The notes below the pieces were generated by a model. It was not told the DNA's origin and made no database searches. It was given only the letters and a program-made list of their open reading frames with translations. A DNA stretch of 64,000 nt from an uncultured Rubrobacteraceae bacterium (GTDB lineage: Bacteria; Actinomycetota; Rubrobacteria; Rubrobacterales; Rubrobacteraceae). The stretch's first letter is position 1. Every line of letters begins with the position of its first letter. Location: positions 62,001-126,000 of the forward strand of contig CADCVE010000001.1 of NCBI GenBank assembly GCA_902806065.1. Direction: 5' to 3'. Positions 979 through 15,135 of the stretch are shown one piece after another. The position numbers and the translations under genes were made by a program.

Positions 979-1663
979 GCCCTCTAGTTGGTCCAGAGTT
1001 AATCCTACCCCCGGACCGTGCCACGCTCTCGATCCCACGACGACCCGCGCGATCGCTGGTCGCACACTAACCGCGCAGCGATACCACAAAAACGATTACC
1101 ACCTGTTAATACACATGACCCCTTCGATGGCGACTCATCCCTTGTGTCGAAACATCCCAGGGCGCGCAAACACTATATGCCGGTACAACTTGCACAGAAA
1201 GAACATCGTGAGGAAGTCAGGCAGCCTCGAAGCGGTTGTTCGACACTACCATGCTATAACCGCGGGTCTGCGGTTGATGACTTCTCTTACTATTGTGGTT
1301 ATGGTCGACAATGACCGCAAAGGCGTCGAAGACCCAACGCATGCCGAACCAGACCCGGCTTCGCCCGTTCTCTATGGTCGTATCCCGCAGACCGTCCTTC
1401 GCCGGAAGTGCCATGCTTGCGCTTGCCACCTTGACAGAGGTGCGGAGATGCCATTGCCACGTGCGCTGAGCGCTCTAAGGGGTGTCTTGGCGTTAATACA
1501 TAAACCTTAGAGCAAGCTGTGAGAATCATAAGGATATTCATAGGAAAGCGAGGTTCATACTTTTGGTGGCGTGAAATCAACCTTTCGGAGGATGGTACAT
1601 CGGGGGGTGAGGGGCGATCATCTGAGCAGTCGTTAGCAAGCTCCAACGAGGAGGTAATGAAAG

Positions 1664-2293
1664 ATGAGGAAGTTTATGATGTTGGGAGCGCTCGTGGCGC
1701 TGGTGGTGGCCGCGCTGGCCCTTCCCGCCCTTGCGCAGGACCGCGGTTTCAGCTTCGAGGATCGCGAGGACTACTACGAGGACCTCTGGAATAGCTACGA
1801 GGACCGCTACGAGGACAGCGCGGGTTGGGACGCCTTCGAGGACCGCTACGAGGACGGCTTCGAGGAGGAAGGATTCCTCGCCTTCGGTAATGACTTCGCG
1901 GACGAGGGCTTCTTCTTCGGTAGGGAAGACTTCGAGGAGGAAGGTTTCTTCTTCGGCGAAGACTTCGAGGACGGGTTCTTCTTCGACGAGGACGATTTCG
2001 ACGGAAGCGGTTCCGACAGCGGGATCAACCAGTCCTTCGAGCAGGACGCCGAGAGCGGCGACGTCAACCAGTCGTTTGAGGTTTCCAACACGGGCGACAA
2101 CTCCAACCAGTGCGTAGGACTCAACAGCGTCGTCAACACCGGCAACATCCAGAATCAGAGTGGCTTCATCCAGTACGGTTCCGAGATCGGTGACTTCGAG
2201 CAGGATGACATCGGCTCCAACATCAACGTGAATGGCAACTCGACGACGACTTGCGATCAGCAGGTCAACCAGGCCGCGGCGGCGGGGCGGTAG
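1664..2293 (+). CDS. Secreted acidic protein (signal peptide, D/E/F-rich repeats, N/Q-rich C-terminal part)
   Basis: RBS GAGGAGG, signal peptide MRKFMMLGALVALVVAALALPALAQ, repeats FEDR.EDYYEDL / EEGFFFGEDFE, then INQSFEQ..GDVNQSFE..NTGDNSNQ. Confidence 0.8.
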   Translation: MRKFMMLGALVALVVAALALPALAQDRGFSFEDREDYYEDLWNSYEDRYEDSAGWDAFEDRYEDGFEEEGFLAFGNDFADEGFFFGREDFEEEGFFFGEDFEDGFFFDEDDFDGSGSDSGINQSFEQDAESGDVNQSFEVSNTGDNSNQCVGLNSVVNTGNIQNQSGFIQYGSEIGDFEQDDIGSNINVNGNSTTTCDQQVNQAAAAGR

Positions 2294-2306
2294 GTAAGCG
2301 CTCGTT

Positions 2307-3224
2307 ATGCTGAAGCCTATGCTAAAGCTGATCCGCAATAGAGGCCGGGGCTTAAAAGCCCCGGCCCTCGCTGCTCGTCCGAACCTTTTTACGCGCCTCT
2401 TGCGCTCGACCCGTGGGTACGCGTTTCTGGGCGTCAGCGTGTCCGTGGCCGCCGTGGTGGTTGTCTCGCTCCTCACCTGGCTGTCTGGCTATGTAGATAA
2501 TGCCATCGGCCGTCCGACCGAGGTGGTCAAGCGCGTACTCCCCGGGGTGCTGGAGCAGGTGGACGACCAACTGGCGACGCTGATCGGTGCGGAGGATGAA
2601 GGGACTTTGCAAGGGGCCGTGCTACGGAGCGCGCGCGATGGCCTGGCCACCGTAAGCTCCGTCCTCCCGCGGCCCGGAACGCCCCGCGAGGCCGCCGCTG
2701 CCAACCGGTCAACCAACGCCCCCAGCGACCCGCAGTCATCATCCGGTCCCACCACCTCTCCAAGATCTCAGGCGGCGACTTCCACCTCCGCCGGAAGCGT
2801 CTCCCCAACCACAAACGAGCCTTCGCCGAAGACGGCGGAGGAGACGCCATCTCAAGGGTCGAGCGAGACACCGCCGTCCGACGGGGCGAGCGAGGAGCCG
2901 GCATCCGCAACGCAAGAGCCACCTCCGCAGAACGCTTCCCCCCAGGAGCCGTCGCCGGAGACGCCTCCGCAAGAGACACCTCCACAAGAGGCGCCTCCGC
3001 AAGAGACACCTCCACAAGAGACACCTCCGCCGCCTATAACGGAAGATCCTCCCCCGCCGGTGACACCAACGCCGCCGGGGGAAGTTCCGGTTCCGCCACC
3101 TGTCACGGAAGCTCCCCCGCCTGTGACGGAAGTCCCACCACCCCTCACGGAAACTCCACCCCCCGCGGCGGGTGAGCCGCCTCTCGTGGTGGATCAACCG
3201 CCACCGACGCCAACAGGCGTATAG
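2307..3224 (+). CDS. Single-pass membrane protein with Pro/Glu-rich repetitive tail (start uncertain, probably downstream of 2366)
   Basis: TM segment GYAFLGVSVSVAAVVVVSLLTWL followed by PPQETPPQEAPPQETPPQ and PPPVTE repeats. Confidence 0.65.
   Translation: MLKPMLKLIRNRGRGLKAPALAARPNLFTRLLRSTRGYAFLGVSVSVAAVVVVSLLTWLSGYVDNAIGRPTEVVKRVLPGVLEQVDDQLATLIGAEDEGTLQGAVLRSARDGLATVSSVLPRPGTPREAAAANRSTNAPSDPQSSSGPTTSPRSQAATSTSAGSVSPTTNEPSPKTAEETPSQGSSETPPSDGASEEPASATQEPPPQNASPQEPSPETPPQETPPQEAPPQETPPQETPPPPITEDPPPPVTPTPPGEVPVPPPVTEAPPPVTEVPPPLTETPPPAAGEPPLVVDQPPPTPTGV
2343..2366. terminator. Perfect 11-bp hairpin GGCCGGGGCTT-AA-AAGCCCCGGCC (terminator-like)
   Basis: Perfect inverted repeat about 50 nt after the stop of the 1664 CDS; no clear U-tract. 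Confidence 0.6.
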
Positions 3225-3459
3225 GCACAAAGGGCTTGCATCTTCAAGGGCAAGTCACCTTTTTGGATCTGTATTTTGCTCGATCCGAGCAGGTTCGCCG
3301 TATTCACGTTTTCCTTGTTTCCCCGTTCACCTGCGATGCCAGTTCGTTACTGTCGCTGGTGGTCTCGCTGCCCGGAGATCCTTACATAAGCAGAAAGAAA
3401 TGGGCCTCTGTGCGTATGCGACCGGCGGTCTGCTCAGCGTTCGCCATATCCATGAAAAC

Positions 3460-3503
3460 TCATAAGTTGTTCACAGGCCGATCATAGCCTTGAGGTCCAG
3501 ACT
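3460..3503 (+). promoter_or_regulatory. TCATARG 11-bp direct-repeat motif (3 units) plus CAGACT
   Basis: TCATAAGTTGT|TCACAGGCCGA|TCATAG-N10-CAGACT. Confidence 0.75.
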
Positions 3504-3680
3504 AGTGAGTAAGAGGTCGAGGAGCTCAAAGAAGCAGCAGTCGCCTCGTAACCTCCAGTCGTGAACGACGACGCGCACGAGAAGGTAATGGACCGGAAGG
3601 AGAGCCAGAGGCTGGAAAAACGCGAACAGGCTTCCGTAAAAGCGATCCGCCGAGGGTCAGTGAGTAAAGGAGATCTAGAA

Positions 3681-3980
3681 GTGAGACGTATGAAGTTGAT
3701 TCTTTCGTTGGCCGCCGTTCTGGCGACAATGGCAGCAACCGCCGTCCCCGCTAACGCCGCCGACCGCGACTACTACACCAACTACGATCGCGACGGGCTT
3801 TACTACGAGTCCTATGAAGACCTGGCGGATTACCGTGAGGACTACTACGAGGACCTGGAGGATTACTACGAGGATTCCTCCGACTACTCTTCCTACAGCT
3901 TCCCTTACTACTCTCCCTACGGTTTCTACCCTCCCTTCTACGGCTACTCTCCCTCCCTCCCCTACAACTTCCGGGACTGA
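3681..3980 (+). CDS. Small secreted Tyr/Asp-rich protein
   Basis: RBS AAAGGAG before GTG 3681; signal peptide KLILSLAAVLATMAATAVPANA; YEDLEDYYEDSSDYSSYSFPYYSPYGF low-complexity mature part. Confidence 0.7.
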   Translation: MRRMKLILSLAAVLATMAATAVPANAADRDYYTNYDRDGLYYESYEDLADYREDYYEDLEDYYEDSSDYSSYSFPYYSPYGFYPPFYGYSPSLPYNFRD

Positions 3981-4068
3981 GCCACCGCCGCGAGAGGCGG
4001 ACCTCCGAAGAGGGCCGTCTCCGTATGGTTCCGGCCTGATACCCGCATCCTTCGAAGGAGGTCGAGCA

Positions 4069-4650
4069 ATGAAAGCCAGTGTCAAGGCGCTTCCGTTCCG
4101 CCAGAGAGCTTTATGGCGCGCGGTATTGAACAGGTACTGTGGGCATATCGTAGGGAGGGCTCCGGTAGAGCTTCGAGGGGAGTTAACCGGGCGCATCCTG
4201 GCTCTCCCGGGCGTAACCGAGGGGCGGAGCACTGTCCCGGGAGTGGAAGGAGCCAGAGCTTTCCTGCTCGAACCGGAATACGCCGGGGGACCAACGGAAG
4301 CATACCTTTCGGGAGGAGAGTTTGCCTTCCTCAATCCTCTCTTTGACGGTGCCCCGCACCTAGCCCTGCCACGTGAGCTGAGCGACGAAGCCGTGGCGAA
4401 GGGATGGGGTGAGTTGCACCCCGTCACGGGCGTCTGGGGCGTCCCACCCATTGCCTTCATGGCATACGACCCGAGAGACGAAGAGGAGTTGGAGGCCGTG
4501 TGGAGCATAGCCCTGGCATCCTACGAGTTCGCCCGCAGCAAACGGGAAACCTCGCCGGACGAGGCGGGTTGTGGTGAGGAGGAGACGCTCCTGCCACGGC
4601 CTGCCTTTGCTGGCGCGGTGGCGTCTTCGAGTGGCGAGGAAAGGACCTGA
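4069..4650 (+). CDS. Luciferase-domain (DUF5519-like) protein
   Basis: RBS GAAGGAGG; C-terminal 'GWGELHPVTGVWGVPPIAFMAYDPRDEEELEAVWSI' typical of the family. Confidence 0.6.
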   Translation: MKASVKALPFRQRALWRAVLNRYCGHIVGRAPVELRGELTGRILALPGVTEGRSTVPGVEGARAFLLEPEYAGGPTEAYLSGGEFAFLNPLFDGAPHLALPRELSDEAVAKGWGELHPVTGVWGVPPIAFMAYDPRDEEELEAVWSIALASYEFARSKRETSPDEAGCGEEETLLPRPAFAGAVASSSGEERT

Positions 4651-4830
4651 ACCCCTGCTAAGGCACGGCTGTAAAGTACCCGCCAGCCGGACCAAGACGT
4701 GTATATGCTGCGTTCCGTCAACGCCGGAAACTTGCACGCGGTACGCGCCAGGAGCTTTATTAGGGGTGGTCTCGGGACTCTTCGTGCTACGCTTGTTTGC
4801 ATGGCTCGAAAGTTCGCGAGCGAGGGCGCG

Positions 4831-6069
4831 ATGAGTGGCAATCCCGTGGCCGGTATCTCCAAGACCCGGTCAACAGACTCCACTCGGCGCCGCGAGCAGC
4901 ATCGTCAACGGCCTAGCCGTAGACTACGTGGCATCGACGTGGCCCGCGCCATCGCGGTGGTGGGCATGGTGATGGTCCACTTCGGGCCGACCCCCGCGCC
5001 GGACACCGCGCTCGGCAACCTCTACGGCCTCTCCCACGGACGCGCCTCGGTGCTGTTCGTGTTGCTGGCCGGGGTAGGGGTGGCGCTGCTCGTTAGTGAC
5101 CGCAGAGACCACTCGGGCCAGCGGTCTGCGCGGTCGCCTGCTCTCTTTCGTGGGCGGCTGGTCTTGCGGGGGGCGATGTTGCTGCCGTTGGGGCTGTGGT
5201 TGGAGGGGCTCGATCACGGGGCGCTCGTGATCCTGCAATATTACGCGATCTACTTCCTGTTTCTGGCGCTGGTCCTCACCGTCCCGGATAGGTGGTTGCT
5301 GGTGGGTGGAGCTGCCGTGCTCGTCGGCGGCCCGCTCGTCTACCTCTGGGCCCAGTCGCTCGCGCCGGAGTTGTTCGCTAGAGGGGAGACCGCCTCTCTC
5401 GACGATCCCGTAGGCAAGATCCTCGACGATCTGTTGCTCACGGGGGCATACCCGCTGGCCGTCTGGGCGACCCCGCTACTTATCGGGATGTGGATCGGAC
5501 GGCGGGATCTGTCAGCTACACCGGTGCGCTGGTGGCTGCTTATCTTCGGGCTGACCGTCGCTGCGGGCTCGGCGGTCGCCGCGGCTCTCGCTACCAACGG
5601 ACTCGCCGCGAGCTTTGCCTTTGACGGGCTGTCACCCGGCGAGCAACCGGGCGGGTTCGCCAGTCTACTGACGGACAGGCCGCACAGTCAGATGCCGCTA
5701 TGGATGCTGGGTTCGGTCGGTTCGGCCTGCGCGGTGCTCGGCGGGATGCTGCTGCTCGCCGACCTGCTGCCGCGGGTGACGTGGCCGCTGGCCGCCACCG
5801 GCCAGATGGCGCTCACCGTGTATGTTAGCCACCTGCTGCTGCTCGCTGCTTACCCGGAGCTGCTGAGGAGCACGGAGGTCCCGGCGGCATTCCTCACCGT
5901 CGGCGTATTCATGCTGCTCGCCGTGGCCGCCTGCACGCTCTGGCGGAGGGTGCTTCCGCGCGGTCCACTCGAAGCTGCTCTCACCGCGCCGTGGTGGGCT
6001 CTCGAACATCTCGTCCAACTGGTCCGCCGGCTCTCAAACGGTCGCGGCAGACCCGGTTCTCGCCGATAA
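4831..6069 (+). CDS. DUF418 / heparan-alpha-glucosaminide acetyltransferase-like multipass membrane protein
   Basis: 'RRLRGIDVARAIAVVGMVMVHFGP', many TM segments; start codon uncertain. Confidence 0.7.
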   Translation: MSGNPVAGISKTRSTDSTRRREQHRQRPSRRLRGIDVARAIAVVGMVMVHFGPTPAPDTALGNLYGLSHGRASVLFVLLAGVGVALLVSDRRDHSGQRSARSPALFRGRLVLRGAMLLPLGLWLEGLDHGALVILQYYAIYFLFLALVLTVPDRWLLVGGAAVLVGGPLVYLWAQSLAPELFARGETASLDDPVGKILDDLLLTGAYPLAVWATPLLIGMWIGRRDLSATPVRWWLLIFGLTVAAGSAVAAALATNGLAASFAFDGLSPGEQPGGFASLLTDRPHSQMPLWMLGSVGSACAVLGGMLLLADLLPRVTWPLAATGQMALTVYVSHLLLLAAYPELLRSTEVPAAFLTVGVFMLLAVAACTLWRRVLPRGPLEAALTAPWWALEHLVQLVRRLSNGRGRPGSRR

Positions 6070-6523
6070 GAGCTGTCCCAAGGGGACGATACAGGCACCC
6101 GCACGCACGAGGGCTGACGAACGCGGGCGAAGCCGTTGAGCGTGCATTTTCTGAAAGTTGCGATCCTATCCCGGAGCGTGCAGCCCATTACCGTCTACAA
6201 GACGCCTTTCTCCGCCTCCTCCTACGCGCGGCGTACCTTCTTGTTCGCGGGACGGCGTGGTCGCTGGCCGATTAAGCTACCTCGATGCTCTGAAGTTCCC
6301 GAGGCCGCTCCGGGTTTGCTCTAATTAGCAGATTGCGGAAGCAGGTTGCGGAAGAATTGACCTTCCAAAACCCGCGCTTTTGGCATTCAGCTTTAGCGCG
6401 GCGCTGTGAGCTGTGCTGAGAAATATCGAAATACCGCGAGTAACTACAGCAGCCCGAGAGTTCTGGCTGGCCGTCTTGCCGGGAGACGGCGCCGCGACAA
6501 CCGGAACCTTCTCTCGCCGCGAG

Positions 6524-7456
6524 TTAGTCATAAACCGTACCGTCGGGCATGGTGGCGCCTTCGAGGGACGCGGTTTGCTCCTCCAACTCTTCTACGGTAA
6601 TTCCCGTGGCGCCCTCAAGGTTGGTGCCGCTCAGGTCTGCATCGGTCAGGTCGGCGCCGGTGAGATCCGCTCCGCTCAGGTCGACTTGCCGCAAGCTGGT
6701 ACTCAACAGGGTGGCTTGATTCAGGTCAGCTTGCCGCAGGCTCGTACCCGCTAAATTAGCATCGGACAGGTTGGCCCGACGCAATACAGACTCGGACAGG
6801 CTGATACGCAGCACCGTGGCGTTCGACAGGTCGGTCTCTGTCAGGTCGGTACCTTCAAGGTAGTCGATCAGGGTCAGGTCAGCCTCGCTCAGGTTGGCAT
6901 TGGCGAGGCTAACGACCGGCTCGACGTCAGTGCCAGGTACTCTACTACCGGCCAATCCCGACTCGGCCAGGAACTCCACGACGCTCCGTCTTTGCTCTCC
7001 GTCAGCCCGCCTCAACAACGCCAACGTGCGCGCTCGCGCCAGGTAACGTGCCTCGTCGTTTTCTTCGGAGTCGAGCAGATCTTCGTCGATGAGCAGGGTC
7101 CCCATCTCTTCGAGGTACGTCTGTAACCTCTCCTCCTGTGCGCGCTGGTCTTCCGCCTCTATCTGCGCCTTGGCGCGATTCTCCTCGGTCTGCACTTGCC
7201 GGTTGTTCTGTGCCTCGTTGAAGAAGAGCGCGCCGAACCCGAGCATTGCCGGGACGATTAGGAGCTGCAGCCAGTCCCAGACCGTTTTGTCGCCGAACCC
7301 CGTACGTTCCCAAGCCCTACCCCGACGAGTCCTCTGCTGTTGTCCCTCCCCCGGCCCCGCACTCGTCCGCTTCCGTGTTTTCCGCTCCACGAAATGCCTC
7401 CACGTTGCTCTGTTGCGCTCCGACAGCCATGCGCTTACCTCATGCCATCTACGCAA
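6524..7456 (-). CDS. Membrane-anchored pentapeptide-repeat protein
   Basis: TM 'WLQLLIVPAMLGFGALFF', coiled coil, then A(D/N)LS pentapeptides (ANLSEADLTLIDYLEGTDLTETDLSNA...). Confidence 0.85.
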   Translation of the reverse strand: MRRWHEVSAWLSERNRATWRHFVERKTRKRTSAGPGEGQQQRTRRGRAWERTGFGDKTVWDWLQLLIVPAMLGFGALFFNEAQNNRQVQTEENRAKAQIEAEDQRAQEERLQTYLEEMGTLLIDEDLLDSEENDEARYLARARTLALLRRADGEQRRSVVEFLAESGLAGSRVPGTDVEPVVSLANANLSEADLTLIDYLEGTDLTETDLSNATVLRISLSESVLRRANLSDANLAGTSLRQADLNQATLLSTSLRQVDLSGADLTGADLTDADLSGTNLEGATGITVEELEEQTASLEGATMPDGTVYD

Positions 7457-7546
7457 TCATACGGGAGACCGCGAGCGTGCGGCTTACGAGCGAGGCACCC
7501 GGCCCGCGTCCCGCGCGGACCGAATGCCTCATGAGGACCTCTGGGC

Positions 7547-8410
7547 TTATCCGTAAGTGGTATCGAGCGCGATGTCGAACGTCGCCGCGTAGCCCTCTCC
7601 AGCCGGGGTCAACGCGAGCGTCAGCTCTTCCCCGCCGCCCTGGTAGATGCCATCGGTGGCGTTCCTCTGGTCGCGTTCCCCCTTCTCGGCATACGGGCCC
7701 TGGGCGAAGACCTCATCCGAGAGAGCGTCGTCGAAGTACAACTGCGACGTGAACTCGTAGCCCTGCTGGGACTCGGCGCTGTCACGGATCGTGAAGTGGA
7801 TGTGGACGGCCCTGCCCTGGTACCAGCCGGGGTAGATCGTCGTGAACCTCGCGGTCCCGTTTTCGTCCGTCAGTTGATACCCGCGCAGGAACGTCGCCCC
7901 CGTGGTGTCGAAATCCCCGGCGGCGTTATCCTGGACACCCGAATACTCACCCAGAGCGTCGCAGTGCCAGACGTCCACTAAAGCGCCGGCCAGAGGACCG
8001 CAGGCTGAGATATCGCCGCCGTCTATCCGCGAGACGTTAAACGTCAGCTCGAACGGGATACCCTCCCTCTCCTCCCGGATGTCCGAGCGTTCGAGGCCCG
8101 TGTCCACGTAGTATGGTCCCTCCGTCTGCTCGGGCTTTACCACGCAGGTAGTAGAGGCCGTCTCCGCTGCCGCCCCGGTCGTCTCGGCAGCGGTCGACGC
8201 GGTAGTAGACGCGCCTGTCGACTCACCCGAGCCGGACTGCTCGCCACCGCCGCAACCCGCGAGGGTCAGGGCCGCCGCCGTCGAGCCCATGAGGCCGAGC
8301 ATCTCCCGTCGGGTGAGGTAGCGAATCCTCGGAACTTCGTTTGCGGGGTCTCTCTCTATCATGTTTGCCTCCTCTTTCTCCTGGTTGATCTTTGACACTA
8401 TTCTTTGCAT
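7547..8410 (-). CDS. Intradiol ring-cleavage dioxygenase-like protein with signal/lipobox
   Basis: 'LTRREMLGLMGSTAAALTLAGCGGG'; 'PEQTEGPYYVD', 'VDVWHCDALGEYSG', 'GRAVHIHF'. Confidence 0.85.
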   Translation of the reverse strand: MQRIVSKINQEKEEANMIERDPANEVPRIRYLTRREMLGLMGSTAAALTLAGCGGGEQSGSGESTGASTTASTAAETTGAAAETASTTCVVKPEQTEGPYYVDTGLERSDIREEREGIPFELTFNVSRIDGGDISACGPLAGALVDVWHCDALGEYSGVQDNAAGDFDTTGATFLRGYQLTDENGTARFTTIYPGWYQGRAVHIHFTIRDSAESQQGYEFTSQLYFDDALSDEVFAQGPYAEKGERDQRNATDGIYQGGGEELTLALTPAGEGYAATFDIALDTTYG

Positions 8411-8830
8411 TGCCTACACACTCCCGTGAGTTGACCCGGCGATTTATACATACATGCCCCCTCCTCATCCGTTACTCGTGCTCACAAGACCATTGTTCAG
8501 GGGAAAGCATTGATTTGCCTATGAGGGGGTTAAGGATTTTCATAGACTGCGTGACAAACGGCTTGCGCCTACCCTCCTCGTCGAGCACGTAGTAGGACGA
8601 AACGCCTTACCGAACCCGATTCACGAGCAACCCTCCTAGTCAGGTTGCTCATCCGGATCAGCGATCCCAAGAGGTTCCGAGCGAACCGCGGGACGATAAA
8701 AACGTGGTCATCCTCGAAAGGAGCGGCGACTATCACTATCCATTACCGGTACTTCGGGTGCTACTGGGATACTATCCTGATGGCGTATTTATAGCGTAGA
8801 AATATCGCTAATCGGATACGCGCTAATCGA

Positions 8831-9646
8831 TCAAACCAGAGCCACGGGGCGGCACCAGCCGCCGCTCGCGCCTTGCACCTTCACCGGGAAGCAGGAGACT
8901 TTGAAGCCGGTGGGACGTGGAATCTTGTCCAGGTTCGCGAGCTTCTCTATCTGACAATACTCCCGCTCTATCCCGGCAAAGTGGGCTTCCCAGATGACCC
9001 GCCCGTCTCCGGTCTTCTCGAACTCTTTGGCCATGTCCGCAAACTTGCGGTCGAAGCCGTAAGCGTCTATGCCTATGACTTTGATCCCCTGCTCGACGAG
9101 CCACAGGGTGGACTCGCGGGTCATCCCTGGTTGCTCGAAGTACTCTTCGCTCCCCAGGTACCGGTCGCGGCCCGTCATTAGCATCACTATGTCCAGGGGT
9201 TTGAGCGAGTATTCGATGCGCCGCAACGCCTCCCGAAGGTCGTCTGCGCCGATCTTCTCCCCGGGCTGCTTGTGGCGCAGATCCAGGACTACCCCGTCGG
9301 AGAAGAACCATTCGAGAGGCAGCTCGTCTATCTTTCTGGCGGGCCTGCCCTCGGACTCCGGGCCGTAGTGCCACGGCGCGTCGACGTGCGTGCCCGCGTG
9401 GGTGATCGCGGTTACCTCCTCGAAGGCGGCTCCCTTACCCCTGGAGTGGACGAGGTCTTCTTCTGTCGCCCCGAAGGTCGCCTTGATCCAGTCCAGACCC
9501 TCACCCTCGTGTGTGAGGTAGCGCACCTTTGGCTTCCACGGCTCATGCGGAGCATCGGGGACTATGCTGACGCCGAGGTCTATCAAGGCACCGTAGGTAA
9601 AGCTCCGCGCTTCGTTGTGATCAGTCTGGAAATCGCTCACCGTCAC
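8831..9646 (-). CDS. Cyclase family protein (kynurenine formamidase-like)
   Basis: 'TAITHAGTHVDAPWHYG' metal-binding motif, 'VVLDLRHKQPGEKI'. Confidence 0.85.
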   Translation of the reverse strand: MTVSDFQTDHNEARSFTYGALIDLGVSIVPDAPHEPWKPKVRYLTHEGEGLDWIKATFGATEEDLVHSRGKGAAFEEVTAITHAGTHVDAPWHYGPESEGRPARKIDELPLEWFFSDGVVLDLRHKQPGEKIGADDLREALRRIEYSLKPLDIVMLMTGRDRYLGSEEYFEQPGMTRESTLWLVEQGIKVIGIDAYGFDRKFADMAKEFEKTGDGRVIWEAHFAGIEREYCQIEKLANLDKIPRPTGFKVSCFPVKVQGASGGWCRPVALV

Positions 9647-9882
9647 TCCTTAAAGTGAGTACGCGTCCGAAAGAACCGGTACTTCCAGGCGCATCTTACA
9701 CTTTTTCGTCTTTCACCTTGCTCCTGGTGACATGGAACCCGTATCGGGCCTACCCGATGTAATTGACGGACATGAGAGCGTTTAGGTCCCGGGGATTCTC
9801 ACGCGCGCCGCCGTCTCAAATGCCTCCGGTAGACCTCCAGTCCCTGGATGGTAGCGCTCTCGAAAACCTTTCCTATGAGAAC

Positions 9883-9926
9883 TCATAAGGTCGCCAAAGG
9901 ACACTCATAGGCTCGCGGTCCAGACT
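9883..9926 (+). promoter_or_regulatory. TCATARG 11-bp direct-repeat motif (outer units conserved) plus CAGACT
   Basis: TCATAAGGTCG|CCAAAGGACAC|TCATAG-N10-CAGACT, 42 nt before GT39 start. Confidence 0.7.
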
Positions 9927-9967
9927 TCCGAGGAAGACGCACGAACAAGGGCGGCAAGAGGAGGAAC

Positions 9968-12112
9968 ATGACGCAAGAATTGACCCGGAAACGCGCCGAA
10001 CGCTCCGCCGGAGCACGTTCGTTGGCCTCCAACCCTCCCTGGCACTGGCTCGCCCTGGCGGCGATCCTGCTCTTGTCCGCCTTCCTGAACCTGTATGATC
10101 TGATGGGCGAGGGATACGCGAACTATTACTACTCCGCGGCTGTCAAGAACATGCTTACGAGCCCGTACAACTTCTTCTTCGTCTCCTTCGACGTTGGTTT
10201 CGTCTCCGTGGACAAGCCGCCTCTGGGACTCTGGATCCAGGCGGCAAGCGCCTACCTCTTCGGCTTCACCGGCCTGAGCGTCCTGCTGCCCCAGGCAATA
10301 GCTGGCGTACTCTCCGTGGCGTTGCTCCACCACCTGGTACGCCGAACCTTTGGCTCGGTGGCGGGACTCCTGGCCGCGCTGGCCCTCGCCCTTACCCCCA
10401 TAGTAGTCGCCACGAGCCGCAACAACACGATGGACATGCTCGTGGTCCTGGCCGTCCTTCTGGCAGCATGGGCCTTCCTCGCCGCCGCCGAGAGAGGGAG
10501 CCTGGGCTTGCTGCTCCTGGGCGCGGTCATGGTAGGGATCGGCTTCAACGTCAAGACGCTGCAGGCTTTCCTGGTATTGCCCGCGTTCTACCTCTTGTAC
10601 CTGCTCGCTGCCCGGACGGACCTCTGGCGGCGGCTACTGCACCTTGGCATCGCGACGGTCGTGCTGCTCGCGGTGTCGCTCTCCTGGGCGCTCGCCGTGG
10701 ACCTGACGCCGTCCGACCAGCGCCCCTACGTGGGCGGTAGCGAGGGCGACTCCGCGCTGAACCTGGCCTTCGGATACAACGGCCTCGAACGCCTGCTCGG
10801 ACGGGAGCAACCCGGAGGCCCGCCTGGAGGCGGCGAACCGGGCGGTGGGAAGGCGGCCGAAAAAGCGCCCGACGCCAAGGCTGAAGATCAAGGCGGCGCC
10901 CCAAAGGGCGGCCCCGGTGGCGGACCAGACGGGCCCGGAGGCGGCGGGCCGGGTGGTATTGGGGAGAACGGCGAGCCAGGGCCTTTGCGGCTCCTCAACC
11001 AGCAAAATGCCGGACAGATAGGATGGCTCCTGCCACTGGCCGTGATCGGACTCTTGGCGGCGGGTTCGCAGAGACGACCCCGCCTGCCACTCGGCCCACG
11101 GCACGCGGCCCTTACCATGTGGGGCACCTGGCTCTTCACGGCGGCGGCCTACTTCAGCATCTCCGGCTACGGACATCGCCACTACCTGGTAATGCTCGCC
11201 CCCGCGGTGGCCGCGCTGGTCGGCATCGGTGCCGTGGCGCTGTGGAGGGATTACCGGAGCCCGGGCTGGCGCGGATGGCTACTACCGCTGACGCTGACCG
11301 GAATGGCCGCCGTACAGGCGTACGTGCTCTTCGACTACCCGGTCTGGCGCGCCTGGATGATACCCGCGGTGGCGGGACTATGTCTGGTCGCCGCCGGGGT
11401 CCTTACCTTCGCGCGCCTGTTGCCATCCTCCAGGGTTCGCTCCTACGCCGTGGGCGTGGCGGTCGCGGGTGTGTTGACCCTCCTCGCCGCCCCGGCGGCC
11501 TGGGCTGCTTACGACGTTTTGTCGTCACAGGGTGGTGGGGGATTGCCAGCCGCTGGTCCCCGGCCTGCCGAGGAGGAGGGAGGCCCCGGCGGGCCTGGTG
11601 GTCCCGGCGGACCTCCGCGTGGAGGAGGCCCGGGTGGGTCTGGGGGAGAGGCAGATCCAGTATTGATGGAATACCTGCAGGCCAACAAGGGTGATGCTAC
11701 GTATCTGGTCGCCGGCCCCAGCTCCATGCCCCTGTCCCCGATCATCCTGGGCACCGACGAGCCGGTCATTAACCTTGGCGGGTTTATGGGTCGTGATCCG
11801 GCCGTCACCCCCGAAGAGCTTACCGGTCTCCTGAACGAAGGCGCCGTGCGCTTCTTCTTGCTGCAAGACAGGGAGCGCATGGAGGAGATGCGGGCCGAAC
11901 AGGAGGCGTCCGGCGGCACCGCTGGGGGGCCTCCCCCGGGCGGTCCTCCGGGCGCGGATAACGAGTCGGTGACCTGGGTGCAAGACAACTGCGAGAAGGT
12001 CCCGGAGGAGCTGTGGAAGTCGCCCGAGGAAGAGGAGGAGCAGGGCGGAGGCGGTCCGGGAGGACCTGGAAGGGCTCAGGCGCTCTACGACTGCGGCATT
12101 GGAGGGAGTTAG
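9968..12112 (+). CDS. Glycosyltransferase family 39 (ArnT/PMT-like) membrane protein with Gly/Pro-rich insertions
   Basis: 'ANYYYSAAVKNMLTSPYNFFFVSFDVGFVSVDKPPLGLWIQAASAYLFGF'; RBS GAGGAGG. Confidence 0.85.
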   Translation: MTQELTRKRAERSAGARSLASNPPWHWLALAAILLLSAFLNLYDLMGEGYANYYYSAAVKNMLTSPYNFFFVSFDVGFVSVDKPPLGLWIQAASAYLFGFTGLSVLLPQAIAGVLSVALLHHLVRRTFGSVAGLLAALALALTPIVVATSRNNTMDMLVVLAVLLAAWAFLAAAERGSLGLLLLGAVMVGIGFNVKTLQAFLVLPAFYLLYLLAARTDLWRRLLHLGIATVVLLAVSLSWALAVDLTPSDQRPYVGGSEGDSALNLAFGYNGLERLLGREQPGGPPGGGEPGGGKAAEKAPDAKAEDQGGAPKGGPGGGPDGPGGGGPGGIGENGEPGPLRLLNQQNAGQIGWLLPLAVIGLLAAGSQRRPRLPLGPRHAALTMWGTWLFTAAAYFSISGYGHRHYLVMLAPAVAALVGIGAVALWRDYRSPGWRGWLLPLTLTGMAAVQAYVLFDYPVWRAWMIPAVAGLCLVAAGVLTFARLLPSSRVRSYAVGVAVAGVLTLLAAPAAWAAYDVLSSQGGGGLPAAGPRPAEEEGGPGGPGGPGGPPRGGGPGGSGGEADPVLMEYLQANKGDATYLVAGPSSMPLSPIILGTDEPVINLGGFMGRDPAVTPEELTGLLNEGAVRFFLLQDRERMEEMRAEQEASGGTAGGPPPGGPPGADNESVTWVQDNCEKVPEELWKSPEEEEEQGGGGPGGPGRAQALYDCGIGGS

Positions 12113-12115
12113 CGG

Positions 12116-13243
12116 ATGGCAGGCGAGAAACCGCAAGGAACTATCGAAGAGGTGAGAGAGCGTCCGAGCGAGACCTCCGGGGAGGAGAAAGTAGGCGCGG
12201 CTCCGTTTGGGCGGCGCGTCTTCAGCCTGCGTAAGGTCGCCGCTTTTCTACTGACTGTGGCCGTCCTGTACCTGGTATACCGGGAGTTGCTCGCCACCGA
12301 TTGGCATGGGGCGTGGGCGAGCGTGCGGGGAGCGAACGCGGCGCTGTTCGCGCTCGCTTTCGCGGTCTTCTACTGCTCGTTCCCTTTGCGCGCCCTGCGC
12401 TGGAAGGCGCTGCTCGGCAACGTTGGATACGATGCTGACGCCGGACGCCCCATGCCCTCGACTGCGAGCCTGACCAGGATCATGTACGTCGCCTGGTTCG
12501 CCAACTGCGTCACGGTCGCGCGCCTCGGCGATGCTTACCGCGGATACTTACTCAAGAGGGCCGCCGGTGTCTCCTTCGCGGTCACGCTGGGGACCATTCT
12601 GGCTGAGCGGCTCCTGGACCTCCTGGTGCTCGCTGCGATGTTGGGGGCGGGTGTGCTCGTCTTGTTCGGCGGTTCGCTGCCGACGGAGGCGACCCGGGCG
12701 CTCGCCGCCGGCCTGGTCCTCTCGGTGATAGGGGTCGTGGGGCTTCTCTCCATGCGGCGTTTCCGGTGGGCGTTCGAAAGCATCTTGCCCGGACGTCTCC
12801 ACGCTCACTACTTTCGCCTGGAGCACGGCGTCATTGACTCCTTCCGCCGCCTCCCGCTGCTCATCGTCCTTTCGGCCACCGGTTGGGTCCTCGAAGGAGC
12901 GGCGCTGTACTTTACCGTCGCCGCCGTCGCGGGCGTCCCGGTTTCGGTAGCGGGCGCTGTGGTGGTCGCGCTGGCCGCCTCGCTCCTGACGGCGGTTCCC
13001 TTCACGCCAGCGGGCCTGGGATTCACCGAGGCTGGCATGATCGTCATGCTTGGCTGGCTGGGATTGGACGCTTCCACCGCTACCGCTGTCACCCTCCTCT
13101 ACCGCGGCATCAATTACTGGAGCATCGTCGTCTTCGGCTTCATCCTCTACCTCTTTAGCCGCGACACGAGCCAGCCCGGCAAGCAGAGACCGGAAACCAG
13201 CTTACCTGTCCAAACACATAAGTTATTCATAGGCCGATCATAG
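12116..13243 (+). CDS. Lysylphosphatidylglycerol synthase TM region / UPF0104 flippase-like protein
   Basis: 'FPLRALRWKALLGN', 'YVAWFANCVTVARLGDAYRGYLLK', 'PFTPAGLGFTEAGM'. Confidence 0.8.
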   Translation: MAGEKPQGTIEEVRERPSETSGEEKVGAAPFGRRVFSLRKVAAFLLTVAVLYLVYRELLATDWHGAWASVRGANAALFALAFAVFYCSFPLRALRWKALLGNVGYDADAGRPMPSTASLTRIMYVAWFANCVTVARLGDAYRGYLLKRAAGVSFAVTLGTILAERLLDLLVLAAMLGAGVLVLFGGSLPTEATRALAAGLVLSVIGVVGLLSMRRFRWAFESILPGRLHAHYFRLEHGVIDSFRRLPLLIVLSATGWVLEGAALYFTVAAVAGVPVSVAGAVVVALAASLLTAVPFTPAGLGFTEAGMIVMLGWLGLDASTATAVTLLYRGINYWSIVVFGFILYLFSRDTSQPGKQRPETSLPVQTHKLFIGRS

Positions 13244-13259
13244 CCCCGATGCGCAGACT
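13216..13259 (+). promoter_or_regulatory. TCATARG 11-bp direct-repeat motif (3 units) plus CAGACT
   Basis: ACATAAGTTAT|TCATAGGCCGA|TCATAG-N10-CAGACT, before the GT2 gene. Confidence 0.75.
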
Positions 13260-13283
13260 GACTAGCGTGACCCGGAACCCGTC

Positions 13284-14213
13284 GTGAAAGGATGGAACCC
13301 TGTGTTTGATGCACGGACGTTTCACGGCGAGGATACGCTGCCCCACAGGCAGGTTAACGTAGAGGTTGTCGTCCCCGTCTACAACGAAGAGAGAACCCTC
13401 CCCGAGAGCATCCCCGCCCTCTTCGCCTACCTGGAAGCCTACTTCCCCTACCGCTGGTCTGTCGTTATCGCCGACAACGCCTCCACCGACTCCACTCTGG
13501 ATGTCGCTGGAAAGCTCGCTGCTACCCACTCCCGACTCTCCGTTTTGCATCTCGACGAGAAGGGGCGTGGACGTGCGCTCAAGACCGCCTGGCTCGCCTC
13601 CGAGGCGGATATCGTCGCCTACATGGACGTGGATCTCTCGACGAACCTTTGGTCGCTCTTGCCGCTCGTAGCGCCTCTCGCGACCGGGCAGAGCGATGTG
13701 GCTATTGGCTCGCGCCTTCTGAGAGGGGCGATGGTCACGAGGCAGTGGAAGCGAGAGGTGATCTCACGTTGCTACAACATGCTGGTCAAGGCGATGTTCG
13801 GCAACCGTTTCTCCGACGCCCAATGCGGCTTCAAGGCTATCAAGAGCGGCGTGGCCAGGGAACTGCTGGCGGAGGTGGAGGACAACGAGTGGTTCTTTGA
13901 CACGGAGCTATTGTTGCTGGCGGAGGAGCGCGGGTTGCGGATCTTCGAAGTGCCGGTTGACTGGGTCGAGGACCTGGATACCCGGGTGAAGATAGCCTCT
14001 ACCGCCGCGAAGGACGTGAAGGGGTTATTGCGAGTCCGGGCGCAGCGCCTGCTCTACCTCTCCAGACGGCTGACGCACCGCGTAGCCCATCGACGCTCCG
14101 TGGAGAAAGAGACCTTCAATACGGATGTCGTCCCCGCGGAGACTCCGGCAAAGGAGCGAGGTGATGTTTTGCTAAGAGCATCCGGAGACGGGTCCTCGTC
14201 CATGAGGCGCTAG
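13284..14213 (+). CDS. GT2 glycosyltransferase (dolichyl/polyprenyl-phosphate sugar synthase-like)
   Basis: 'VEVVVPVYNEERTLPESI', 'ADNASTDSTL', 'YMDVDLSTNL', 'QCGFKAIK'. Confidence 0.85.
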   Translation: MKGWNPVFDARTFHGEDTLPHRQVNVEVVVPVYNEERTLPESIPALFAYLEAYFPYRWSVVIADNASTDSTLDVAGKLAATHSRLSVLHLDEKGRGRALKTAWLASEADIVAYMDVDLSTNLWSLLPLVAPLATGQSDVAIGSRLLRGAMVTRQWKREVISRCYNMLVKAMFGNRFSDAQCGFKAIKSGVARELLAEVEDNEWFFDTELLLLAEERGLRIFEVPVDWVEDLDTRVKIASTAAKDVKGLLRVRAQRLLYLSRRLTHRVAHRRSVEKETFNTDVVPAETPAKERGDVLLRASGDGSSSMRR

Positions 14214-14265: not shown

Positions 14266-15135
14266 ATGACTGAGTACACGAGTCGCTATCCGGCAAGACA
14301 GTCCGAAACGCCGGATCTCTTACGGGATTACTTCTCTTATATAAAGCGGGGCAGGCTCCTTACTCACGAGGAGGAGATCAGGCTCTCCAGGGCCGCGAAA
14401 GCCGGGGATGGGCACGCTCGCCGGAGGCTGGTCGAGAAGAACCTCAGGCTGGTCGTCTCGGTGGCGAAGAAGTACCGTGGGCTGGGGCTGCCGTTCGAGG
14501 ATTTGATCCAGGAAGGCAACATGGGCCTGCTCAAGGCCGTCGAGAAGTTCGACCCCGACCTCGGCTACCGCTTCTCTACGTACGCGACGTGGTGGATCCG
14601 GCAGGGCGTCCAGAGGGCTGTCACGGACAAGGGCCGCGCTATCCGCGTCCCGGTACACATGGTGGAGAAGGCGAGGAAGACCTCCCGCGCCCGCGACGCA
14701 CTTGCCACGCAGCATGGGCGGGAGCCAACCGAAGAGGATATCGCCGCACACCTCGAATGGAGCAGCGAGGAGGTGCGGGCCGCCCTGAGCGCGGCGACAG
14801 AGGTGGTTAGCCTGAACATGACCTTCGACCCCGAGCAGGGAGCGACGGAGATGGGTGACCTCGTGGAGGACGAGCGAACCCCGGGACCGGCGGATACCGT
14901 GATGGGGGAGATGGAGACCCTCGGGCTTCGGTCGGCCGTGGAAGGGTTACCGGATAGGGCGCGCCACGTCCTGGTGCGTCGCTACGGCCTCGACGGCCAG
15001 AATGAGGCGACCCTCGCCGAACTCTCCCGGGAGCTTGGCATCTCCAGAGAGCGCGTCCGGCAAGTGCAGAGGGAGGCCCAAAACCTTCTCAAGACCGGGG
15101 AACACGCCTGGCTTCTCCAAAAGGCCCTGGCATAA
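14266..15135 (+). CDS. RNA polymerase sigma-70 family factor (RpoD/SigA-like, no region 1.1)
   Basis: '[55 protein letters not shown]', '[19 protein letters not shown]'. Confidence 0.95.

Follow-up and report, generated by a model that had tools for sequence, protein, structure and literature searches.

Conserved four-half-site boxes predicted to act as promoters of cell-surface genes under an OmpR/PhoB-type two-component system in Rubrobacteraceae

A stretch of 64,000 nucleotides from an uncultured Rubrobacteraceae bacterium (assembly GCA_902806065.1, contig CADCVE010000001.1, positions 62,001 to 126,000; hereafter the window, from whose first letter positions are counted) contains three sites, B, C and D, in which TCATAG-like units precede a CAGACT hexamer. 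These sites are real and evolutionarily conserved, and they appear to switch on cell-surface genes. With a probability that we put at roughly 0.86, they are, together with two further boxes (E and A), promoters that depend on an activator and belong to a small regulon controlled by a single two-component system, whose OmpR/PhoB-type response regulator is encoded on another contig (locus L061). An earlier note on this DNA had described B, C and D as three direct units read by one response regulator in front of envelope genes. Its description of the sites holds letter for letter: all three lie on the plus strand in the same layout, their units have a period of 11 bp, CAGACT starts 16 bp past the start of the last unit at each of them, and B and D agree at 27 of 30 bases. 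The genes behind them are also those it had named, i.e., a Tyr/Asp-rich secreted protein, a GT39/YkcB-like PMT_2 protein and a GT2 glycosyltransferase. Boxes E and A, the inverted half-site CTATGA and the box at the regulator gene had escaped it. The boxes and their predicted target genes are the following:

Box B, 3448..3505, plus strand: inverted unit 3450-3455; direct units at 3460, 3471 and 3482; -10-like CAGACT at 3498-3503; 57.7 bits.
Predicted target of B, 3681..3980, plus strand: small secreted Tyr/Asp-rich protein with a signal peptide, no Pfam match.
Box C, 9871..9928, plus strand: inverted CTATGA 9873-9878; units at 9883, 9894 and 9905; CAGACT at 9921-9926; 50.6 bits.
Predicted target of C, 9968..12112, plus strand: GT39/YkcB-like glycosyltransferase (PMT_2 and YkcB_C).
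Second gene of the C operon, 12116..13243, plus strand: LPG_synthase_TM protein, its last codons overlapping box D.
Box D, 13204..13261, plus strand: degenerate inverted unit 13206-13211; units at 13216, 13227 and 13238; CAGACT at 13254-13259; 47.4 bits.
Predicted target of D, 13302..14213, plus strand: GT2 glycosyltransferase.
Directly behind the GT2 gene, 14266..15135, plus strand: Sigma70-like factor, regions 1.2-4.
Box E, 8490..8547, minus strand: CTATGA-AAAT-CCTTAA...TCATAGG...TCAATG-N10-AACAAT; 27.0 bits (profile R2, below), the best score in the window after B, C and D.
Predicted target of E, 7547..8362, minus strand: Tat/lipoprotein-type intradiol dioxygenase-like protein.
Box A, 1488..1545, minus strand: weaker; upstream of the gene at 1664-2293 and pointing away from it; 23.5 bits (R2); orthologous box at L222:4137, minus strand.
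Putative target of A, 1664..2293, plus strand: secreted acidic protein rich in Asp, Glu, Phe and Tyr.

Allowing up to three mismatches, the triple-unit pattern is matched three times in the window versus 0.02 times expected from dinucleotide shuffles, and B, C and D are its sole matches in the 3.75 Mb genome, where the reversed control gives none. They are likewise the only places in the whole genome with TCATAG-N10-CAGACT. A genome scan had been named in the earlier note as a possible refutation, should the motif fall at random positions; its matches are confined to positions upstream of genes. The same arrangement is present in several genomes of the genus, with a nearly empty reversed-pattern control. 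A sequence-only profile from ten aligned sites (R1) identifies about 30 places in 7 of 10 genomes of the genus and adds a fourth place in the own genome, G000:C27:44661-44709, which is the promoter of the L061 regulator gene. A family profile of 41 sites (R2), whose training set includes box E and this regulator box but not box A, gives six matches in the own genome (B, C, D, E, A and the regulator promoter), all of them upstream of genes. The box is found across Rubrobacteraceae beyond the genus, and among 150 genomes drawn from the phylum no R2 match outside the family exceeded 19.2 bits, versus 23.5-51.5 bits for the own six. Low-complexity look-alikes were set aside, namely tandem repeats of CCATAGGTACA in G035:C42 and TCATAGCCTCT in G011:C9; the former, at G035:C42:17664-17714, is a tandem array with an 11-bp unit resembling a half-site and seems to be a simple repeat. 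A reading of the sites as an RNA element was also dropped, an Rfam match being absent in the window.

Individual boxes are retained in relatives. The ortholog of box B in genome G001 (L222:5612, plus strand) lies in identical synteny; counterparts of box C are located upstream of GT39 orthologs in L064, L065, L071 and L072, and in L074 ahead of a start with N-terminal similarity to GT39; and counterparts of box E precede dioxygenase homologs at L062:4988, L063:8885 and L077:2471. Orthologs of box D occur at L065:1826 and L075:5298, and because the upstream open reading frame of L075 ends ahead of the box, conservation of box D is at the DNA level. In this genome and in G001, the overlap of box D (13204-13243) with the upstream gene encodes the C-terminus HKLFxGRS. 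Near box A, a plus-strand footprint facing the gene at 1664-2293, TCATAAGRATMTTCATAGGA...TTCATMCTTTTGG with 12-bp spacing, is conserved between 1517-1566 and L222:4172-4222; its geometry is unlike that of the standard box.

Alignment of the ten sites revealed an inverted half-site, CTRTGA, four bases ahead of the first TCATAG (starting 10 bp before the first unit). The operator thus consists of four half-sites, the inverted CTRTGA followed by the direct units TCWYAK (unit 0), NCAAAG (unit 1) and TCAYAG (unit 2), spaced by 10/11/11 bp, so that the three direct units described earlier are present as part of a larger element with one inverted member. When sites are picked on the four half-sites alone (columns 1-40), an nAnnnT hexamer stands at exactly N10 in 51 of 59 of them and in 0-5 at any other offset, which bears out in sequence the claim of an activator replacing the -35 element. 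CAGACT is the commonest -10-like form (15 sites), and 30 of the N10 hexamers are within one mismatch of it. With the hexamer set at -12 to -7, units 1 and 2 fall at about -39 to -23 and would therefore replace the -35 element. Many target starts lie 33-40 nt beyond the box, with site B as an exception (about 175 nt from the gene start). Both features of class II promoters of the OmpR/PhoB family, 11-bp direct repeats and a repeat end about 10 bp before the -10 in place of the -35, are found here, whereas the head-to-tail-only arrangement that is usual, not obligatory, in this family is not, a conserved inverted unit lying upstream.

The -10 carries C in place of the usual T at -12, which raises the question of the sigma factor involved. 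Possibly, though this is doubtful, transcription from these promoters uses the sigma factor of the regulon itself (14266-15135), which would read C at -12, in a feed-forward loop from regulator to sigma to targets. Sigma genes are found behind box D and, elsewhere, divergent from the regulator gene, as is the case for homologs of the window sigma factor in other genomes. The equivalent of E. coli T440 is Gln in the window sigma and Thr in the genome's two primary-type sigmas; in E. coli, the sigma changes Q437H and T440I suppress a T-to-C change at -12 (PMC2613000). The -10-like sequences of the regulator's own promoters are TAnnnT-like. However, another sigma of the genome (L231) also has Gln there, that Gln would read C at -12 is an analogy, and a weak -10 may just be acceptable to an activator-driven promoter.

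Linkage to a regulator gene provides a second line of evidence. The genes concerned are:

Response regulator, G000:C27:44759-45445 (L061:8760-9449), 229 aa: OmpR/PhoB-type, Response_reg receiver domain and winged-helix Trans_reg_C domain.
Histidine kinase, L061:9461-10789, 442 aa: membrane protein adjoining the regulator.

Regulator and kinase are probably co-transcribed, and the regulator is, judging from the box at G000:C27:44661-44709, located about 50 bp before its ATG and facing away, probably autoregulated. Close orthologs of this regulator occur in most Rubrobacteraceae genomes, with 64-89% identity, whereas the remaining OmpR-type regulators listed for the family reach at most about 51%. 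Where the upstream region of the ortholog is complete, the box is found at its promoter in all family genomes but L094/L120, sometimes with variant half-sites; it always points away from the regulator, 38-105 bp (mostly 45-53 bp) from its ATG, and in G001 the gene on its far side is a GT39 divergent from the regulator. In the near-complete genome G002, the ortholog (G002:C1:1254192-1254883) is split in two frames, by a real frameshift or an assembly error, and the box and the divergent P-type ATPase gene beside it look intact.

The naming of this regulator is based on the residues with which it reads DNA, which vary across the family together with the letters of the site. The helix SVVELYVSYL pairs with TCATAG, NVVDLYVSYL with TCACAG and SVVEHYVSYL with CCTAAG; three paralogs combine a Tyr-to-His change with CGACAG, and where the Ser219 position holds His or Tyr, the boxes are of the TCAAA type. 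L087, which groups in the Ser clade, has an Asn-bearing helix and retains TCACAG. In the crystal of M. tuberculosis PhoP on TCACAGC, Asn212 bonds base 4 (C7) and Tyr220 base 2 (C5) (PMC4832192), and it is these two bases that vary along with the residues equivalent to Asn212 and Tyr220. The claim that one response regulator is in charge is thus upheld by an OmpR-type regulator whose own promoter has the box across the family and whose recognition helix co-varies with the half-site. Tentatively, and with a probability well below one half, the data might be extended to a Rubrobacteraceae-specific paralogous two-component family in which regulators and four-half-site operators have co-diverged into at least five types (TCATAG, TCACAG, CCTAAG, CGACAG and TCAAA), forming a natural OmpR-type recognition code, with a sigma factor adapted to C-12 promoters.

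An inverted repeat in the upstream half of the box and a direct repeat in the downstream half could also mean that two proteins share it, one factor binding the palindrome CTATGA-N4-TCATAG and an activator of the OmpR type binding the direct repeats, and most OmpR-type regulators do bind head to tail (PMC8345958). We consider this improbable. In each genus and paralog, letter changes in the inverted unit go along with those in the direct units: after reverse complementation, base 4 of the inverted unit equals that of unit 2 at 0.71 of 66 sites versus 0.36 expected (0 of 5000 shuffles, which ignore phylogeny, reach this), it also co-varies with unit 0 solely when reverse-complemented, and in the direct reading base 4 of the inverted unit has no association in the same 66 sites. 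Since the inverted and outer direct units co-vary, they are most likely read by one protein; moreover, head-to-head binding has also been reported for OmpR-family proteins.

Regulation by the L061 system has to be weighed against several observations that speak against it. The middle direct unit 1 (columns 24-29 of A3) does not co-vary with the other half-sites, and the tree gives only about four to five independent co-changes of helix and site. Co-occurrence in 40 family genomes (20 with regulator and box, 4 with regulator only, 2 with box only and 14 with neither; Fisher p ~1e-5) is partly circular, since some non-genus regulator-promoter boxes trained the family profile; outside the genus, extra boxes away from the regulator are present in 7 of 15 regulator-bearing versus 0 of 15 regulator-lacking genomes (p 0.006, tallied by hand). 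G007 has four boxes, and a close regulator ortholog was not found in its 75%-complete assembly. Finally, the own genome encodes a second response regulator, L024 (G000:C14:9907-10134), whose recognition helix (NVVETYVSYLRRK) resembles that of PhoP and which might in principle recognize similar DNA. That L024 (helix SNVVETYVSYLRRK) rather than the L061 regulator binds the boxes is, in our judgment, about as improbable as sharing by two proteins. In its helix, L024 comes very close to M. tuberculosis PhoP, whose targets are TCACAGC direct repeats of identical 7+4 spacing (PMC4832192), but R2 gives no box at the L024 locus, Asn at the base-4 contact predicts TCACAG whereas the genus uses TCATAG with a Ser-bearing regulator, and the family-wide linkage of the box is to orthologs of the L061 regulator. 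Chance, or a repeat in coding sequence with no regulatory role, to which the overlap of site D with the end of an open reading frame might point, is refuted to near certainty by the shuffles, the whole-genome counts, the phylum control and the DNA conservation where that frame ends earlier.

In the model that we favor, the phosphorylated L061 regulator would bind the four half-sites, one inverted and three direct, with the last two standing in for the -35 element; RNA polymerase would then open the weak -10 (CAGACT, N10 downstream), and the box at the regulator's own promoter would provide autoregulation. The identity of the regulator (by linkage and recognition-helix covariation), the operator and the promoter geometry are drawn from comparative sequence evidence; phosphorylation, the activating sign, the signal, the role in envelope stress and the sigma cascade are what we infer. 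The output would comprise a sigma factor besides envelope and secreted proteins, a set that best resembles a response to envelope stress or a remodelling of the surface.

This last interpretation is based on the predicted products, most of which are exported or membrane-bound. In relatives, genes preceded by a box include GT39 and GT2 orthologs, dioxygenase lipoproteins, an HtrA-like protease, GlsB/YmgE proteins, transglycosylases, a P-type ATPase, NhaA, a Rieske lipoprotein, small secreted proteins and a sigma70-like factor, of which the sigma factor at 14266-15135 is the homolog in the window; the target start codons and some weak targets, which a script assigned, are not all certain. Of the envelope/exopolymer regulon proposed earlier, the envelope part stands, the targets being mostly exported, membrane or glycosylation proteins; 'exopolymer' is too narrow, given the HtrA protease, GlsB/YmgE proteins, transglycosylases and sigma factor elsewhere. 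A Tyr/Asp-rich protein behind a box in G001 is similar in composition to the one at 3681-3980, with no BLAST match between them. Positions 1664-3980 of the window and L222:4324-6090 form a syntenic cluster of small secreted Asp/Glu/Tyr/Phe-rich proteins with no Pfam match, which adjoins a Pro-rich membrane protein; these are possibly surface matrix components.

As predicted here, with regulator, operator and targets, this is apparently the first two-component regulon defined in an actinobacterial family with radiation- and desiccation-tolerant members. In the literature searched, there were almost no transcription studies on Rubrobacteraceae, and a search on Rubrobacter regulators returned no work on this system. 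The parallel changes of helix and operator represent a natural experiment on how duplicated OmpR/PhoB regulators shift their specificity, and a handful of point mutants would serve to check the half-site predictions.

The closest known counterpart in DNA recognition is PhoP of M. tuberculosis, whose recognition helix is NVVESYVSYLRRK, near-identical to SVVELYVSYLRRK. Both systems have in common an 11-bp direct repeat with 7+4 spacing (TCACAGC-N4-TCACAGC for PhoP), and the co-varying residues fall on the PhoP crystal contacts (PMC4832192). They differ in that, with the 4-bp spacer kept, the site is TCATAG in this genus and TCACAG in most other genera, in the fourth, inverted half-site, in the gene set, and in that the most PhoP-like helix of the genome lies in another protein, L024. 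In Pho box promoters of E. coli, 11-bp repeats end about 10 bp before the -10 and replace the -35, as they appear to do here. The L061 regulator, however, scores 213.7 bits and does not pass the PhoB equivalog cut-off of 296.2, and there is no phosphate-transport (pst/pho) gene among the annotated box targets, pst loci not having been searched directly; a Pho-regulon reading was therefore not adopted. For MprAB of mycobacteria and Corynebacterium, control over sigma factors, HtrA and the mprAB operon itself under envelope stress has been reported (PMC12113857), and boxes here precede regulator, sigma factor and HtrA-like protease genes, in different members of the family. This is a resemblance in targets, not membership. 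Among the model matches listed for the L061 regulator, there is no MprA model. The motif reported for C. glutamicum MprA, TKTTAAGAAM, differs from the box, and the sigma factor is RpoS/RpoD-like, not an ECF factor as SigE. As for the operator itself, OmpR-family proteins bind mostly head to tail, and head-to-head binding, as in HP1043/OmpR, indicates that they can also occupy inverted half-sites (PMC8345958); what sets the present boxes apart is the combination of one inverted and three direct half-sites in a single conserved operator.

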